From contig AP014719.1 in NCBI GenBank assembly GCA_001549895.1, positions 2,356,001 through 2,420,000 of the forward strand: 64,000 nucleotides of DNA. The letters are read 5' to 3'. The position numbers and the translations under genes are program-made. This document shows, piece after piece, positions 2,610-57,136 of this stretch (positions are counted from its first letter, which is position 1; every line of letters begins with the position of its first letter). Source of the stretch: Arthrobacter sp. Hiyo8. Its GTDB lineage: Bacteria; Actinomycetota; Actinomycetes; Actinomycetales; Micrococcaceae. The notes under the pieces are model-generated. The model searched no databases and had not been told where the DNA came from. It saw nothing but the letters and a program-made list of their open reading frames with translations.

Positions 2610-2723
2610 GAAAAGACTCTCTTTTGGAGGGGTCGGATATGCAGAATAGCTAGACTACTAATTAAAGATTATCGTCCAGCGCATGGCACCCCGTCAAAGG
2701 CTCCGTCAAAGGCACTATTAAAT

Positions 2724-2743
2724 CTTCGGGAGCGGCCCCGAGA
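2724..2743 (-). terminator. possible terminator after the lysS unit
   Basis: A short GC-rich hairpin on the minus strand (CTCGGGG ... TCCCGAAG) followed by GATTTAATAG, a few bases past the stop of the small membrane protein. The stem includes a G-T pair and the T-tract is weak, so this is tentative. Confidence 0.4.
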
Positions 2744-2748
2744 AAGAG

Positions 2749-2925
2749 CTATTTGGCAGGTGTTGAGCCGTCGCCCGCAGGCTTGGCAATTCCGAATCCG
2801 GCTTCTTCCTGGGCGCGGGCTTCTGCTTGGCGCTCTGATTTGTCCGCGTTGAAGATAGCCTTCATGGCAAACCAAAAGAGAAGTCCGACAACAACGGACG
2901 GTGCAAGAACGGCAATGTATTCCAT
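2749..2925 (-). CDS. 58-residue single-pass membrane protein following lysS
   Basis: A small gene that starts two bases after the restored lysS stop codon (TGACCATGG). The predicted product begins MEYIAVLAPSVVVGLLFW, which is one hydrophobic N-terminal helix. It continues as a charged tail rich in Glu, Ala and Lys (KSERQAEARAQEEAG) and ends TPAK. The N terminus is probably outside or in the membrane, with the polar tail in the cytoplasm. Small proteins of this type downstream of lysS are familiar in actinobacteria but have no assigned function that I know of. Tight coupling to lysS suggests co-expression. The frame is intact, which supports it being real. Confidence 0.8.
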   Translation of the reverse strand: MEYIAVLAPSVVVGLLFWFAMKAIFNADKSERQAEARAQEEAGFGIAKPAGDGSTPAK

Positions 2926-2927
2926 GG

Positions 2928-4456
2928 TCAGTGCCCTTCGGGCTTGAGGAGTGGGAACAAGATGGTTTCCGGATGCCTGCTCCGGTGAACAGCATGACCA
3001 AGCGGTCGATGCCTAGGCCGATGCCGCCCATGGGCGGAGCACCGTACTCGAGGGCGCGCAGGAAGTCTTCATCCAACTGCATTGCCTCGACGTCGCCGGC
3101 GGCCGAACGACGCGACTGCTCCGTGAGGCGTTCGCGCTGGATGACGGGGTCGATCAGCTCGGAGAAGGCCGTGCCGCGTTCCATGCCGCCAATGATGAGG
3201 TCCCAGGCCTCGATCAGGCGGCCGTCCTCCCGGTGCGGGCGGGCAAGGGGCTGCGCGGAGGGTGGGTAGTTGTAGACGAAGGTCGGGTTGAGCAGGGTCG
3301 GCTCGACGATCTCGCCAAACAGTTCCACGACAAGCTTCTCGGCGTCCCACTTCGGATCCACCTTGACCTCGTGCTTGGCGGCAATGGCCTGCAGTTCCGC
3401 CACCGTGGTGTCGGGGGTGATCTCTTCCCCGATCGCCTCGGAGAGCCCCGGGTAGACAGCAACCCAGGCCCATTCGCCGTCGAGGTCGATCTCTCCGGCG
3501 TCAGTCTGGATGGTGCGGGTGCCCACGACGTCGGCGACGTTCAGGATGATTTCCTTCATGCGTTCGGCCATGACGAACTGGTCCGCCCACGCCTCGTAGC
3601 ATTCCAAGGTGGTGAATTCAGGGCTGTGCGTGGAGTCGACGCCTTCGTTGCGGAACACGCGGCCCATGTCGTAGACGCGATCGATTCCGCCCACCACGGC
3701 ACGCTTGAGGAAGAGCTCTGTGGCGATGCGCAACGTCATCTTCTGGTCGAAGGCGTTCATGTGCGTCTCGAACGGCCGGGCCGTGGCACCACCGTGGACG
3801 AGCTGCAGGATGGGGGTCTCCACCTCCACATAGCCGCGGCGGTCCAAAGTGTCGCGAACCGAGCGGGTAATCGCCGCGCGGGTGTAGACCATTTCCCGGG
3901 CTTCGTCACGGACCATCAGGTCCACATAGCGCTGCCTGACACGGGTTTCCTCATTCAGCTCGGCGTGCAGCACCGGCAACGGGCGCAAGGCCTTGGAGGC
4001 CATGGACCAGGAATCAGCCATGACAGAGAGCTCGCCACGCCTGGAGGAAATGACTTCGCCCTTGATGAAAACGTGGTCTCCGAGGTCCACCAGCGCTTTC
4101 CAGTCCGCGAGGGTTTCCTCGCCGACGTTTGCCAGGCTGAGCATCGCCTGCAGGCGCACGCCCTTCCCGTCCACACCGCCCTCCTGGAGGGTAGCGAAGC
4201 AGAGCTTGCCGGTGTTGCGCACGAACACCACACGGCCGGTGACGCCCACGATGTCGCCGGTGGTTTCGTCAGCCTCGAGATGTGCGTACTTCTCGCGGAT
4301 CTCGGCAAGGGAATGCGTCCGCTCAACACCCACCGGGTAGGCCTCGGTGCCGCGCTCAATCAGCTTGCTGCGCTTTTCCATGCGGATGCGCATCTGCTCG
4401 CTGGCGTCGGCAGGCTCGGCGGCGGTGTGCGGGGATGGGGTGTTTGCGGAAGTCAC
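2928..4456 (-). CDS. lysS: lysyl-tRNA synthetase, class II (one frame break near the C terminus)
   Basis: Charges tRNA-Lys in the cytoplasm. An N-terminal OB-fold domain carries the RVVFVRNTGK region. The class II core follows, with motif 1 (RRGYVEVETPIL), motif 2 (FRNEGVDSTHSPEFT) and motif 3 (GGIGLGIDRLVML). After motif 3 the frame goes wrong. Adding one G near base 2970 gives the expected ending IRETILFPLLKPEGH and a stop at 2928. The repaired protein is 509 residues, normal for LysS. The start is placed at a GTG (4456, VTSANTPS). A TTG twelve bases upstream with AAGGA ahead of it is an alternative. The gene is divergent from the hydrolase genes. Confidence 0.95.
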
Positions 4457-4533
4457 AATCCACAAGTTTACCGGGGATTCCTTGGAGTTCCCTATCTTCC
4501 CCTCCCGCCCCCGCGGCAACATAGACTCGGGCT

Positions 4534-5432
4534 GTGGAGACATGGACAGTTGAAACGGACGACGACGGCGGGCACCTCGAGGTGCACTCCTTCCGGCCGG
4601 CGGCTGAGGCGTCCATTCCGGGCGCGTCGGGCGCTACGGAGGAGCCCGGCGTCGTGCTCGTTCACGGCACCTTGGTGACCGACTCCCTCTACTGGCCATT
4701 CGCCCGGAACCTGAGCGTCCTGCTAGGCCGGCCGGTGCATTCCTACAATCGGCGCGGCCGCGGCCGATCAGCGCCGCAGCCGCCCGGCTACTCCGCCGCA
4801 ACGGAGACCAGCGACTTGCTTTCCGTGATGGAAGCGAGCGGATCCACCGATGTTGTCGGGCACAGCTATGGCGGATTCGTCGCGCTCCAGGCCGCGCTGC
4901 GCGCCCCCATTTCCCGCCTCGTCACTTACGACGCCGCGGTTTCCCTCTCCGGCAACTTGAACGGGCGCTGGCGGCCGCAATTGGAAGAGGCCGTCACCGC
5001 CGGCCAGCTCGACAACGCATGGGCGCATTTGGTCCAGGGGCTTGGCACGGCCGGCCCGATTTCCTATTTGCCGCTCGGGGCACTGCGGGTGCTCAGCATC
5101 CTCTCCGCGAAGACGAGGTTGGGTTCCGAGATGAGGGAATTGCTGCCGACGGCGGTTTTGGAGATGCGGGCGATCATTGACGCCGACTCGCACATCCAAG
5201 ACTATGCGGAGTTGAAGACGCCAACCCTGATGCTCAGCGGCGGGTGGAGCCGGCGTACTTTGCCGAAACCGGCCGGCAGCTTGCGGCCGCCATTCCTCCG
5301 GTGGACTTTGCGGTAGTTCCATTGCAGTTCCACGAGGGTCCCCTCCGGCCGGGCAAACAGCTCGCTGTGAGAATTGCCCGCTACCTGGCGCGGGGACGGC
5401 GAAGGCGCCGTCCCCCTAGGATGAAGCGGTGA
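4534..5432 (+). CDS. alpha/beta hydrolase, copy 1 of 3 (one frame break)
   Basis: First of three tandem paralogues. The alpha/beta hydrolase fold is shown by the oxyanion segment VLVHGTLV, the strand SYNRRGRGRS and the nucleophile elbow GHSYGG (Ser nucleophile). The frame breaks in a G run near 5243. One added G gives LSGGVEPAYFAETGRQL and a total of 299 residues. The GTG start overlaps nothing upstream and lies 77 bases from the divergent lysS start. The stop overlaps the next hydrolase start (GTGA), so the two are translationally coupled. The substrate cannot be told. The family includes esterases, haloperoxidase-like enzymes and signalling hydrolases such as RsbQ. Confidence 0.8.
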
Positions 5433-6281
5433 GAGAACGTGAGGTCCCGACGCCCGACGGCGGCAAGCTCGCCTTGTACAGTTACGGCTCGGTGGACGCG
5501 CCAGGAGAACGCCGCGTGGTGCTCATTGGGGGCGCATTCCTGACCGCGCTCATCTACCGGCCCTTTTCCATGGCGCTATCGAAGGGACTCGGCGAGGGCT
5601 GGGCAGTCGACGTCTACGATCGCAGGGGTCGCGGCAGCTCTTCGGAACTACCCGCGAACTACTCGATGGACACGGAGATAGCGGACGTCCGCAGCATTTT
5701 GGACGCCACCGGCGCCAGGAACCTCCTCGGCCACAGCCTTGGCGGATCCGTGGCATTGAATGCCGTCCAGGAGTTTGCGGGAACAAGCTACGAGCCGGAC
5801 AAACTGGCTGTGTATGACGCGGCCGTGAACATCGACGGGAGCATGGACACGGGCTGGCTGGACGGCTTTGCCCAATCCGTGGACAGCGGGAATGTGGGGC
5901 GTGCCATGGCCAGGATGAAGCGGGGAATGCAGCCTGGCACCGCTTTGGCGCGAATCCCGGAGCCCATCCTGGCGGGACTCATGGCCCTTGTTTCCCGCAC
6001 CAAGGTCAACAAGGTCCTCAGGGGACTCATGCCAACGGGCGTGGCCGAACTCAAGGCCGCCTACGACGAAGCCGCGCATCCCCGGGACTTCTCGGTGCTC
6101 CCCGGAGCACGCGATTCATCGTGGGTAGCAAAAGCCCCGAATACTACAAGGTCACCGCAGAGCGGCTATACGCAGCCGTCCCGGGAAGCACGCTGGTGTA
6201 TCGCCGAAAGGCTTCCACGGATCCATTCCTGCCGCGGTCAAGGAACTCGTGACGGACATTTCCAGCTATTTCAAGGACTGA
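5429..6281 (+). CDS. alpha/beta hydrolase, copy 2 of 3 (two frame breaks)
   Basis: Same architecture as copy 1: VVLIGGAFLTALIYRPF at the oxyanion strand, VYDRRGRGSSSE, and nucleophile elbow GHSLGG. The C-terminal third is scrambled by two missing bases (near 6103 in a C run and near 6205). Repair restores RSTRFIVGSKSPEYYKV and then RPKGFHGSIPAAVKELV, which brings back a probable catalytic His (KGFHG). The stop is then at 6279-6281 and the length 284 residues. The GTG start overlaps the copy 1 stop by four bases. A 31-base gap separates it from copy 3. Confidence 0.75.
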
Positions 6282-6312
6282 CGGAACCCCGCGGCTCCGT
6301 TAGGCTCGAAGC

Positions 6313-7146
6313 ATGACGCGCGAGAACATCACAACGGCCGACGGCGGAACCCTCGAGCTCTTCACGACGGGCGGTGAGCTTGCCAACGGCGGCTCAGGCG
6401 TCGTCGTCGTGCCCGCATCCATGGTGACCGCCGCAGACTATTCCAAGTTCGCCCAGAAACTCAGCGCCGCCTTGCGCCGCCCGGTCCACACCTTCAACCG
6501 CCGGGGCCGTGGTGAATCATCGCCCCAGCCCGAGGACTACACCCTCGACGTCGATATCCGGGATCTTTCCGAAGTCATGAAGCACACGGCCAGCACCGAC
6601 GTCTTCGGCCACAGCTTCGGAGGCGCCGTGGCCCTGCACGCGGCGCGTACGCTGCCGGTGGAACGCCTGGCGGTCTACGACCCCGCTGTCTCCGTCAACC
6701 ACAGCGTGAAGGCGGACTGGACGGGCGAATACGAACGCGCGACGGCGGCTGGAGACTTTGACCGCGGGCTTGCTGTGCTCGTGAAGGGCGTCGAAACAGA
6801 GGGCGCCTTCGCGCGGATGCCGCTGTCCATGCTGACGCTCGTCACGAAGCTGACCTCAGGCACCCCCATGGGCAAACAAATGCGGGAGCTCATGCAGGCC
6901 GGCGTGCGTGAGATCAAGGCAGTCATCGCCGCGGACATGCCCGCAGAGCCTTTCCTTGAGCTGCCGCTGGAGACGCTCATTGTGGTCGGGGAAAAGAGCC
7001 CCGCCTACTTCGGTGTGGCGTGTGGCCAGATCCACGACGTCCTGTCCGGATCGAGCTACACCATCCTGCCCGGCCACGGCCATGATGGTGTGATCCGCGC
7101 ACCGGACAAGCTCATCGCCGAGCTCTCCGACTTCTTCTCGGGGTAG
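6313..7146 (+). CDS. alpha/beta hydrolase, copy 3 of 3
   Basis: Intact 277-residue paralogue of the two genes before it. It has VVVVPASMVTAADYSKF in the place of the oxyanion strand, HTFNRRGRGESSPQP, nucleophile elbow GHSFGG and a C-terminal LPGHGHDGVI that supplies the likely catalytic His. Copies 1 and 3 share the RRGRG-S-PQP segment almost exactly, so the cluster arose by duplication. The TAG stop runs directly into the tandem repeat array that follows. Function is not established; the substrate is probably a small hydrophobic ester or related compound. Confidence 0.8.
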   Translation: MTRENITTADGGTLELFTTGGELANGGSGVVVVPASMVTAADYSKFAQKLSAALRRPVHTFNRRGRGESSPQPEDYTLDVDIRDLSEVMKHTASTDVFGHSFGGAVALHAARTLPVERLAVYDPAVSVNHSVKADWTGEYERATAAGDFDRGLAVLVKGVETEGAFARMPLSMLTLVTKLTSGTPMGKQMRELMQAGVREIKAVIAADMPAEPFLELPLETLIVVGEKSPAYFGVACGQIHDVLSGSSYTILPGHGHDGVIRAPDKLIAELSDFFSG

Positions 7147-7370
7147 ACGCCCGCTCACATATAGGGGTTCTGAGCGGACGCCGGCTCACATATACCGGGT
7201 TCCGGCGGGACGCCCGCTCACGTATGGCGGCTCCCGGCGGGACGCCCGCTCACATCTAGCGGGTCCCGGCGGGACGCCCGCTCACATCTAGCGGGTCCGG
7301 CGGGACGCCCGCTCACATATAGCGGGTCCCGGGGGGACGCCCGCTCACATCATGTGAGCGGGGGTTGGCT
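7147..7370. repeat. tandem array of about seven 31-33 base units (ACGCCCGCTCACATATA core)
   Basis: Seven copies of a unit with the core ACGCC(C/G)GCTCAC(A/G)T followed by ATA-GCGGGTCCCGGCGGG or a variant. The first begins at the base after the hydrolase stop. The last copy folds back on itself as CCCGCTCACAT-C-ATGTGAGCGGG, an almost perfect palindrome. The array fills the gap between a plus-strand gene and the 3' end of a minus-strand rRNA operon. Related units occur at 16.75-16.93 kb and 56.38-56.53 kb. Confidence 0.85.
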
Positions 7371-7403
7371 CGTGTGTCGTGTGTTGGGGTGTGTTAAGTG
7401 GGT

Positions 7404-7432
7404 CAGGCCCCGACACGGTGTGTCGGGGCCTG
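7404..7432 (-). terminator. rRNA operon 1 terminator
   Basis: Perfect 13-base-pair hairpin (CAGGCCCCGACAC / GTGTCGGGGCCTG, loop of three) a dozen bases beyond the 5S 3' end on the minus strand. The same hairpin follows the second operon, where one C of the stem is missing. Confidence 0.85.
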
Positions 7433-7444
7433 GCCGGTGAATGG

Positions 7445-7564
7445 TTGTCCGGCGGTGTCCTACTCTCCCACACCCTCCCGGGTGCAGTACCATCGGCGCT
7501 GTGGGTCTTAGCTTCCGGGTTCGGAATGGGACCGGGCGTTTCCCCACGCTATGACCGCCGTAAC
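7445..7564 (-). rRNA. rrf: 5S ribosomal RNA, operon 1
   Basis: About 120 bases with the usual 5S landmarks on the minus strand: GTTACGGCGGTCATAGCG at the 5' end, CCATTCCGAACCCGGAAGC in loop B/C and GGGAGAGTAGGACACCGCC near the 3' end. It has one C fewer than the second copy in the GTGGGGGAAACGCC region, which looks like a homopolymer error. Confidence 0.97.
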
Positions 7565-7744
7565 CCTGTTACCCGTCCCCGCGCACACGTGGGTGCGGGT
7601 GGGAAGATACGTGGTTACAACTTGTCCGGACCCGGTGAAGGGTTCGGTGGTGTTGTTATTCAGTTGTTGGTTCCATGGAACACACCCGGTGGCGGGTTGT
7701 TGTTCGGGAACCACATAGTGGACGCAAGCAGTGATCGTGTTTGT

Positions 7745-12970
<5,226 letters not shown>

Positions 12971-16739: not shown

Positions 16740-16932
16740 GCGTATGTGAGCCCGGGGTTTGGGATTTCGAGGCCATATCCGAGCGGGGTTTGGGATTTCC
16801 AGGCCATATCTGAGCGGGGTCCGGGGAAACCGGGTCATGGGTGGGCCGGGGTTGGATGCCCGGACCGCCGCTCAGTAATAAAGGGTTTTCGTGGGACGCC
16901 CGCTCACGTATGCGGGGTTTTCGTGGGACCCT
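16740..16932. repeat. second repeat array (GAGCGGGGTTTGGGATTTC and GACGCCCGCTCAC units)
   Basis: Three tandem units beginning GAGC(C/G)GGGG, two of them with GTTTGGGATTTC and AGGCCATATC. They are followed in opposite sense by CCGCTCAGTAATAAAGGG, GACGCCCGCTCACGTATGCGGG and a decayed GACCCTCGCTCGTG. The GACGCCCGCTCACGTAT unit is the same element as in the 7.15-7.37 kb array. It lies between the 3' end of rRNA operon 2 and the FadR-type regulator, so both rRNA operons have such an array at their 3' side. Confidence 0.75.
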
Positions 16933-16969
16933 CGCTCGTGTGCCGTGTGTTGGGGTGTGTTAAGTGGGT

Positions 16970-17009: not shown

Positions 17010-17130
17010 TTGTCCGGCGGTGTCCTACTCTCCCACACCCTCCCGGGTGCAGTACCATCGGCGCTGTGGGTCTTAGCTTCCGGGTTCGGAATGGGACCGG
17101 GCGTTTCCCCCACGCTATGACCGCCGTAAC
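17010..17130 (-). rRNA. rrf: 5S ribosomal RNA, operon 2
   Basis: Same gene as in operon 1 with one more C in the run near 17110 (121 bases). The longer form fits the 5S structure better, so the operon 1 copy is the one likely to be short. Confidence 0.97.
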
Positions 17131-56379: not shown

Positions 56380-56530
56380 AAAGGTGAGCGAGGGTCGCTC
56401 GAAAAGGCGCTAAAGGTGAGCGAGCGTCGCTCGAGGACAACGCCCGCTCAGATATACCGCCTTAAGCGCGAACGCTCACTCACAAGAGTGAGCGAGCGTC
56501 GGCGGAAAAGGCCCTAAAGGTGAGCGAGGG
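56380..56530. repeat. third repeat array (GGTGAGCGAGGGTC / AACGCCCGCTCAGATATA units)
   Basis: Units of (A)AAGGTGAGCGAG(G/C)GT occur near 56383, 56414, 56489 and 56518. Two end in CGCTCGA, forming small hairpins. Between them are AACGCCCGCTCAGATATACC and AACGCTCACTCAC in the opposite sense. It is the same family as the arrays at 7.15 and 16.75 kb. It ends exactly at the stop of the nitroreductase gene (GAGGGTTAG). Confidence 0.75.
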
Positions 56531-57136
56531 TTAGACGGTACGGACGACATCCTCGTACGCGAACTTCGGCTTGGCTTCGCCGAAGGCGTCCGGACCCGGC
56601 TGGCCGATGTTGACCACGAGGAAGCTCTTCTGGTCACCGGCGGGGAAGAACTCGGCGTCGATCGCAGCGAAGTCGGCACCGGTCATGGGGCCGGCGGCGA
56701 AGCCGAGGGAGCGGACGGCGAGGATGAAGTAGCCGGCCTGCAGGTGGGCGTTGTTGTTGCCCGTAGTTGCGGTGAACTCGGGGTTGGCGTCGTACATGGC
56801 CTTCGGGGCAGAGTAGACCGGGAGGAATTTGTCCCACTGCTCGTGCCAGGCGGTGTCGTAGGAGAGCACGGCGACCAGCGGAGCAGAGGCGGTCTTGGCC
56901 TTGTTGCCCGGAGAGAGGGTCTCGACGAGCTTGGCGCGGGCCTCGTCCGAACGGACGTAGGTGACGCGCAGCGGCTGGGAGTTGAACGCTGTCGGGCCGA
57001 ACTTGGTCAGTTCGTAGATGGCCTGTGCTTGCTCGTCCGAGACCTCACCGGCAAAGGAGTTGGCAGTGCGGGCTTCGGCAAAGATGGCGTCGACTGCTGC
57101 GGCGTCAATCACTGCTTCTTCGTGGGCGATCGTCAT
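56531..57136 (-). CDS. nitroreductase-family protein, RutE-like
   Basis: Intact, 201 residues. FMN-binding nitroreductase fold: ARTANSFAGEVSDEQAQAIY, KFGPTAFNSQPLRVTYV, and GYFILAVRSLGFAAGPMTGAD. The form matches the RutE/HadB group, which reduces malonic semialdehyde in uracil breakdown and can act on other small carbonyls. It is divergent from a uracil permease, which fits that role. The start MTIAHEEAV has AAAGG eight bases ahead. Enzyme specificity is inferred from family and neighbour only. Confidence 0.8.
   Translation of the reverse strand: MTIAHEEAVIDAAAVDAIFAEARTANSFAGEVSDEQAQAIYELTKFGPTAFNSQPLRVTYVRSDEARAKLVETLSPGNKAKTASAPLVAVLSYDTAWHEQWDKFLPVYSAPKAMYDANPEFTATTGNNNAHLQAGYFILAVRSLGFAAGPMTGADFAAIDAEFFPAGDQKSFLVVNIGQPGPDAFGEAKPKFAYEDVVRTV

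Follow-up and report, generated by a model that had tools for sequence, protein, structure and literature searches.

REP-like repeats, whose function is still argued, have been described mostly in Proteobacteria, as far as the text of one paper on them goes (Di Nocera 2013, PMC3733652), and in its main text the words 'arthrobacter' and 'actinobacteri' are absent. According to the same source, REPs of the GTAG and CGTC classes are short extragenic repeats found chiefly on the downstream side of genes, where the neighbours are convergent or co-directional; inverted pairs are common, head-to-tail pairs are rare, and an outer unit or terminus may supply a stop codon. Each consists of a single palindromic unit of 20–40 bp with an unpaired GTAG or CGTC tag, and the CGTC families are without a transposase. 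The BIME-2 elements of E. coli are arrayed in tandem at gene ends and are enriched for gyrase cleavage. Gyrase and its cleavage are also concentrated downstream of rRNA operons, an attraction that the available text of PMC6379681 describes as driven by transcription and not hard-wired. The motif of the enzyme has a G+C period of 10.75 bp (PMC6379681).

Here we analyse a repeat family of Arthrobacter that came to light in the window, the whole stretch of 64,000 nucleotides examined. A first-pass annotation of this stretch had noted a resemblance to REP/BIME-type elements, which stands for location and fails for build. Like REPs, the Arthrobacter repeats are extragenic, lie at gene 3′ ends between convergent or co-directional genes, face each other in inverted pairs and may reach into a stop codon. 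However, the unit is non-palindromic, with hairpins at array centres only; its end, RAC[G/C], is paired in those centres rather than forming an unpaired tag; and head-to-tail repetition on a strict 32-bp lattice dominates. The likeness to BIME-2 lies in the tandem arrays at gene ends, but whereas in E. coli it is gyrase that concentrates downstream of rRNA operons, in Arthrobacter the arrays themselves are found there, at all operons of the window's own genome (G000) and of G012. We know of no sequence relation between E. coli BIME-2 and these arrays.

The family is restricted to one lineage and apparently undescribed. In agreement with the first-pass annotation, no description was found in the open literature, most subscription journals being outside that scope; among the matches listed, the letters of the core occurred in unrelated papers only. 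The RepRanger paper (PMC12306157) gives putative REP counts, that is, of extragenic palindromes, for Arthrobacter livingstonensis, a member of the same genus; its available text holds counts only, with no sequence family, lattice or array, and the word 'tandem' is absent from its main text. Among the tandem repeats given in the available text of a VNTR paper on the relative Renibacterium (PMC4029610) there is no such unit.

Three arrays in the window

Array 1 lies on the plus strand at 7146–7352 and consists, as originally claimed, of seven tandem units of about 32 bp each, starting at 7146, 7177, 7209, 7241, 7273, 7304 and 7336 and followed by an inverted half-unit on the minus strand (7350–7366; 13.2 bits in the profile scan). 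Tandem Repeats Finder gave a period of 32, 6.5 copies and 88% matches, and the window holds 11 core matches with at most one mismatch, against a mean of 1.78 and a maximum of 6 in 100 shuffles. The units of array 1 scored 13–27 bits in the profile scan, of which the weakest are not significant alone, since chance scores reached 18.4 bits (best of 12 shuffled strands). The array was also said to start at the stop of the third of a series of hydrolase genes and to end in a nearly palindromic unit, and both descriptions are accurate. The last base of the TAG of an alpha/beta-hydrolase-like ORF (6313–7146, plus strand; named by resemblance alone) is the G of the first unit, giving a one-base overlap, and the last unit and the mirrored half-unit form the 23-bp palindrome CCCGCTCACAT-C-ATGTGAGCGGG (7340–7362; 11-bp arms, 13 of 15 arm positions paired).

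At its opposite end the array is faced, across about 80 bp, by the 3′ end of the 5S gene (7447–7562) of rRNA operon 1, which continues with the 23S (7745–10881) and 16S (11448–12969) genes, all on the minus strand. Since array 1 faces the 3′ end of this operon as well as that of the hydrolase ORF, it separates two transcription units that converge. Between it and the 5S gene stands a separate hairpin, CAGGCCCCGACACG-G-TGTGTCGGGGCCTGG (7403–7433; 13 of 15 arm positions paired), whose place beside the 5S 3′ end suggests that it is the rRNA terminator hairpin. Array 1 had no match in phage and plasmid collections, and an origin from either was rejected; an Rfam search gave three matches, all under the gathering score. 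The three hydrolase-like ORFs are consecutive at 4534–7146 of the window, and by eye the end of the third adjoins an rRNA operon in G012, G022 and G269 too. The lysS-like ORF (2669–4543) and the second hydrolase ORF (5429–6316) seem to enter frame-shifted tails.

The core recurs at two other places in the window, in both orientations and beside 3′ ends, as had been reported. Array 2 comprises minus-strand units at 16753–16822, with a variant core (CCCGCTCGGATAT / CCCGCTCAGATAT) and a period of 31, and plus-strand units at 16862–16937 (best unit 16895–16911) beside the 5S gene of rRNA operon 2 (17012–17128, minus strand); the site (16775–16911) is at the 3′ end of that operon and also 5′ of a GntR-like gene. 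Array 3 (56380–56532) has minus-strand units at 56380–56396, 56412–56428, 56484–56500 and 56516–56532 and one plus-strand unit at 56439–56455. It lies at the 3′ end of a nitroreductase-like gene (56531–57136; named by resemblance), the TAA stop of which is overlapped by the last unit, AACCCTCGC (56516–56532).

A 17-bp core repeated on a 32-bp lattice

The consensus of 648 units from 13 genomes (640 once the window array, also present as L145, is counted once and not twice) is a 17-bp core, RACSCYCGCTCACNTAT, with a 15-bp spacer that has no fixed base and is G+C-rich at positions 19–22, A+T-rich around 23–26 and G+C-rich again at 28–30. Spacing of the units is strict. With the window array counted twice, 332 of 361 same-strand gaps below 40 bp measure exactly 32 bp, and a further 24 deviate by one base (31 or 33 bp); with it counted once, 350 of 355 close same-strand neighbours are spaced 31–33 bp. 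These 350 head-to-tail steps compare with 67 inward-facing and 31 outward-facing pairs within 160 bp (the window array being counted twice in the latter two classes). The spans of inward-facing neighbours peak at 63 and 95 bp, values that equal 32n−1, so mirrored units stay on the lattice; for outward-facing neighbours the commonest distance is 10 bp. Outward-facing units are 88 bp apart in four cases; in related loci a second dispersed element, about 80 bp long and built on a core that is GGACTGCCGCCGTCG-like, stands between such units.

The length of the unit is close to three 10.75-bp periods. A 10.7-bp period in the A+T profile of the unit was not significant (permutation fraction 0.16), and a gyrase-like wrap is therefore unsupported by the sequence.

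Pairing is concentrated at array centres

The consensus of core and spacer has no self-complementarity and no pairing signal at the spacer positions, and an RNA hairpin formed by a single unit was ruled out because the spacers carry no internal pairing signal. At array centres, by contrast, the outer end of the unit, RAC[G/C] (complement [C/G]GTY), is paired with the other arm; in centres of other types CTGCAG or CTTCAG replaces GCTCAC. A covariation test was run on 102 centres that were chosen with no regard to arm match. Agreement between the two arms exceeds chance from position −3 to 12; at stem positions 7–9 the match is 0.69–0.77 against 0.42–0.50 expected (z 6.4–8.4), and among freely varying positions z reaches 8.4, at position 8 (0.77 versus 0.47). 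In the same 102 centres, pairing is at chance level for flanking units and for most spacer positions, and weak signals (z 2 to 3) appear at −17, −16, −14, −13 and −27. Since the arms match at centres only, array centres tend towards genuine hairpins or dyads, beside flanking units that do not pair with each other; such a centre is not required, as all units have a single orientation in 50 of 112 arrays.

This covariation argues that the centre has a single-strand or mutational role, and it counts against a reading of the arrays as a lattice bound by protein. Because the centre covaries and the region of array 1 folds better than shuffled sequence (z −4.75), the main rival to that reading is an element acting at the RNA level, in which transcribed arrays would fold into hairpins that stop transcription or shield mRNA ends, working both ways where genes converge. 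The bias of arrays to gene 3′ ends, described below, would suit such an element, as would compact elements, one each in G245, G287 and G298, that are near-perfect long palindromes with their spacers included. However, beyond the chance-level pairing of flanking units and spacers and the many one-oriented arrays, array 1 itself has the hairpin of an intrinsic terminator but not the T-tract (this comparison concerns the window array), a scan of 6900–7700 having found no T-tract terminator there and a single site at 7626–7647. In addition, arrays at rRNA operons begin, by eye, about 70–150 bp past the 5S gene and beyond a separate hairpin. We regard an RNA-level element as unlikely, although it has to be taken seriously.

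Cores stay nearly intact while spacers diverge

Mean identities of core and spacer were 0.88 and 0.51 for units within one array, 0.84 and 0.45 for orthologous arrays of other species (33 pairs, hand-chosen from the flank-comparison list) and 0.82 and 0.35 for non-orthologous arrays. The core identities are inflated, since units are recognised by their core, and gaps in the lattice provide a better test: if cores drifted, degraded units should leave neighbours two lattice steps apart. Almost none exist. With the window array counted once there are 350 single steps (31–33 bp) and 3 missed units, and evenly sampled stretches alone (40 stretches of 20 kb in each of G000 and G012, about 17% per chromosome) give 53 single steps and no missed unit. 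The likeness of spacers within arrays suggests local duplication and conversion, by which new units seem to arise, while distant spread looks slow or finished. CRISPR arrays were rejected, judged on spacers alone, because spacers are more alike within arrays than between non-orthologous ones.

The sites are also retained between species. When the flanks of 114 arrays were compared across species, an array was present at the subject site in all but 13 of the 134 directional comparisons listed, most subjects having been retrieved because they bear arrays. Restricting the comparison to evenly sampled subjects and excluding rRNA flanks left an array at 10 of 11 sites (by reading); the lone empty site had been recognised through ISL-85, and L213, among the ten, lacks one of two adjacent arrays. 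Array sites are kept at flank identities of 76–98%, and in aligned examples the position is fixed and the unit number, orientation and spacers change.

Turnover at fixed sites, and a copy number that is clade-restricted and patchy, would be compatible with functionless extragenic repeats (REP/MITE-like or minisatellite), tolerated behind genes, whose likeness slippage, conversion and template switching would maintain. Template switching can perfect palindromes. Functionless repeats would not readily explain why cores remain at the family consensus while the spacers of the same arrays diverge, why sites are kept across species, or why five of five rRNA operons carry an array in each of two species. 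Nor did a REP-associated transposase, which the first-pass annotation had suggested looking for, turn up in the carriers covered. The RAYT Y1 transposase domain (PF01797) has no match in nine carriers (G000, G001, G002, G008, G011, G012, G022, G043 and G045), and genes bracketed by two arrays show none by eye, which led us to reject RAYT/IS200-type mobility. We consider the functionless alternative improbable, if still a serious one.

Copy number and taxonomic range

In G000 the degenerate core (at most one mismatch) has 140 forward and 134 reverse matches, 274 in total, compared with 17 (7 and 10) for a reversed control of the pattern. The family is therefore dispersed through the genome and its relatives, far beyond the three places seen in the window. 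A tandem form of the pattern matches 50 times in G000 and is present in 11 of 119 genomes, its own included, all 11 in one genus. A scan of named genomes gave at least 94 stretches; among the matches listed, 86 were from Arthrobacter or Paenarthrobacter and 8, including L125 and L134, were from unrelated bacteria and were dropped. The exact core pattern was found in 6 of 295 genomes of the taxonomic family, a figure that is too low since loci with single matches held whole degenerate arrays. A two-unit sequence profile detected family members in 20 of 197 genomes, belonging to 2 of 32 genera (g1 and g54); this search took 30 candidates per genome under strict filters, so that the counts for single genomes saturate and weak carriers may have escaped it. 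Compact elements occur in the second genus, among them the long palindromes mentioned above. One simple history would be the growth, in one Arthrobacter branch, of a compact palindromic gene-end element into long arrays. At 54%, the G+C content of one stretch of G000 (L153; C1, 4230001–4250000) is lower than that of the remaining sampled stretches (about 64%), and the stretch is a possible recent acquisition.

The even strand counts over the whole genome speak against a strand of the repeats that follows the replichores, and they also bear on whether the arrays are marks of the origin half of the chromosome, like nucleoid-occlusion or macrodomain sites. The dnaA gene lies at 2.488 Mb, close to parS-like sites (2.49–2.50 Mb). 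In the even samples, array-bearing stretches are more frequent in the near than in the far half (7 of 20 versus 2 of 20 in G000; 5 of 20 versus 1 of 20 in G012), and G012 is without a tandem match at 1.83–3.40 Mb among the best 33 of its 45 matches. However, taken by itself neither gradient reaches significance (Fisher p 0.13 and 0.18; Spearman p about 0.06 each). Arrays also occur well away from the origin in G000, at 0.41 and 4.50 Mb, and the matches in G245 are scattered along the contig. Domain marking of this kind is very unlikely. Contig C1 of G022 also contains, in frames of 294 aa, five weak DnaA-domain matches of identical score, which we take to be probably a repeated IS ATPase.

Arrays are placed towards gene 3′ ends

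Our home-made gene caller, finally trained on G012, covered 62% of G000 and 80% of G012. This low coverage and the frame-shifted ORF tails indicate that the assembly of G000 probably has indel errors, and because G000 looks frameshifted gene context was drawn from relatives and G012. After exclusion of 37 edge arrays, 75 arrays of at least two units were placed in the relatives, none of them inside a called gene: 27 lie between convergent, 42 between tandem and 6 between divergent gene pairs, whereas the intergenic lengths of the G012 sample predict 10.9, 45.9 and 18.1 (chi-square p 1e-7). Of the 42 arrays between co-directional genes, 36 are closer to the 3′ end (median 48 versus 147 bp, p 3e-6). 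At gene 3′ ends the stop codon is reached by 14 of 96 outer units, whereas at 5′ sides 1 of 55 comes equally close to the start (the 55 include L125, which is left out of the 96). About 5% of gene 3′ ends have an array of at least two units within 500 bp (29 of 623 in G012, 31 of 628 in G000), and the same rule gave 21 of 571 and 25 of 597 gene 5′ sides, respectively. Since these counts are nearly alike on both sides, the 3′ bias rests on the distances and the orientation classes, both of which bear out the relation to gene ends suspected in the first-pass annotation.

The DNA uptake sequences of Neisseria and Haemophilus have a fixed core and occur as inverted pairs at gene ends. The Arthrobacter arrays resemble them in both respects, and their free flanks and restriction to two genera would also suit uptake sequences that a bias in uptake had enriched in a competent actinobacterium. 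Against this, all 75 placed arrays lie outside called genes, the units are in tandem and they number only a few hundred; known uptake sequences, to our knowledge, do not form tandem arrays and are often inside genes. Even though the relative Micrococcus luteus is naturally transformable, according to the available text of, for example, PMC8467076, we regard this explanation as extremely improbable.

Arrays lie past rRNA operons in several species

For rRNA operons we counted arrays of at least two units within 500 bp past the 5S gene, by which the operons of G000 were located. All five G000 operons have an array, of 5 to 14 units with up to 3 mismatches, as do 5 of 5 operons in G012, 4 of 5 in G022, 3 of 5 in G011, 3 of 6 in G345 and 2 of 5 in G001; none was found past the 5S gene in G269 (0 of 6), G245 or G298 (0 of 5 each). 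The total is 22 of 47 operons, compared with 2 of 47 in a reversed-sequence control. No p-value is given, because rRNA copies are homologous and five of five are not five independent events. The lack of arrays in G269, G245 and G298 indicates that the array is dispensable at rRNA ends. The site matching array 1, recognised by eye from the hydrolase end, has 3 units in G012 (L285), 2 in G022 (L313) and none in G269 (L284).

Other repeats occur at similar positions. Past the 5S gene in G001, L281 and L289 have another core, GACGCGCCATCA, on about the same lattice, possibly a dialect of the family, and past an rRNA operon in G345, L280, L296 and L311 contain another tandem repeat, which is CGGAAACGACCGGGTA-like.

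Discussion

The steady core, the strict lattice of three helical turns, the indifference to strand and the location at rRNA ends and between convergent genes would fit arrays that are bound along their length. We tentatively favour, at rather less than even confidence, the reading that they form a lattice for a putative DNA-binding factor at the ends of transcription units and that they buffer or bound transcription. The core would be the recognition site of the factor, which would load side by side, one per unit, the 32 bp corresponding to three helical turns. Loading would take place where transcription ends and positive supercoils meet, at the ends of rRNA operons and between converging genes, on arrays whose units often converge from either side on a central hairpin. 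The bound lattice may then buffer or bound transcription, by analogy with what has been proposed for gyrase at E. coli BIME-2. It is a more doubtful possibility that the arrays are a docking lattice for a putative protein peculiar to the Arthrobacter lineage, or else for gyrase, one that would mark the busiest transcription-unit ends, those of rRNA operons above all, and would have held its 17-bp recognition core across species as the DNA in between drifted.

The argument over REP-like repeats can now draw on an actinobacterial family of a different build, with a 32-bp lattice and an undecayed core, that lies past every rRNA operon in two species. The rRNA ends with 2 to 14 units, together with relatives that have none, form a natural series for testing what repeats do at busy genes, and the site of array 1, with 3, 2 or no units in three relatives, is part of that series.
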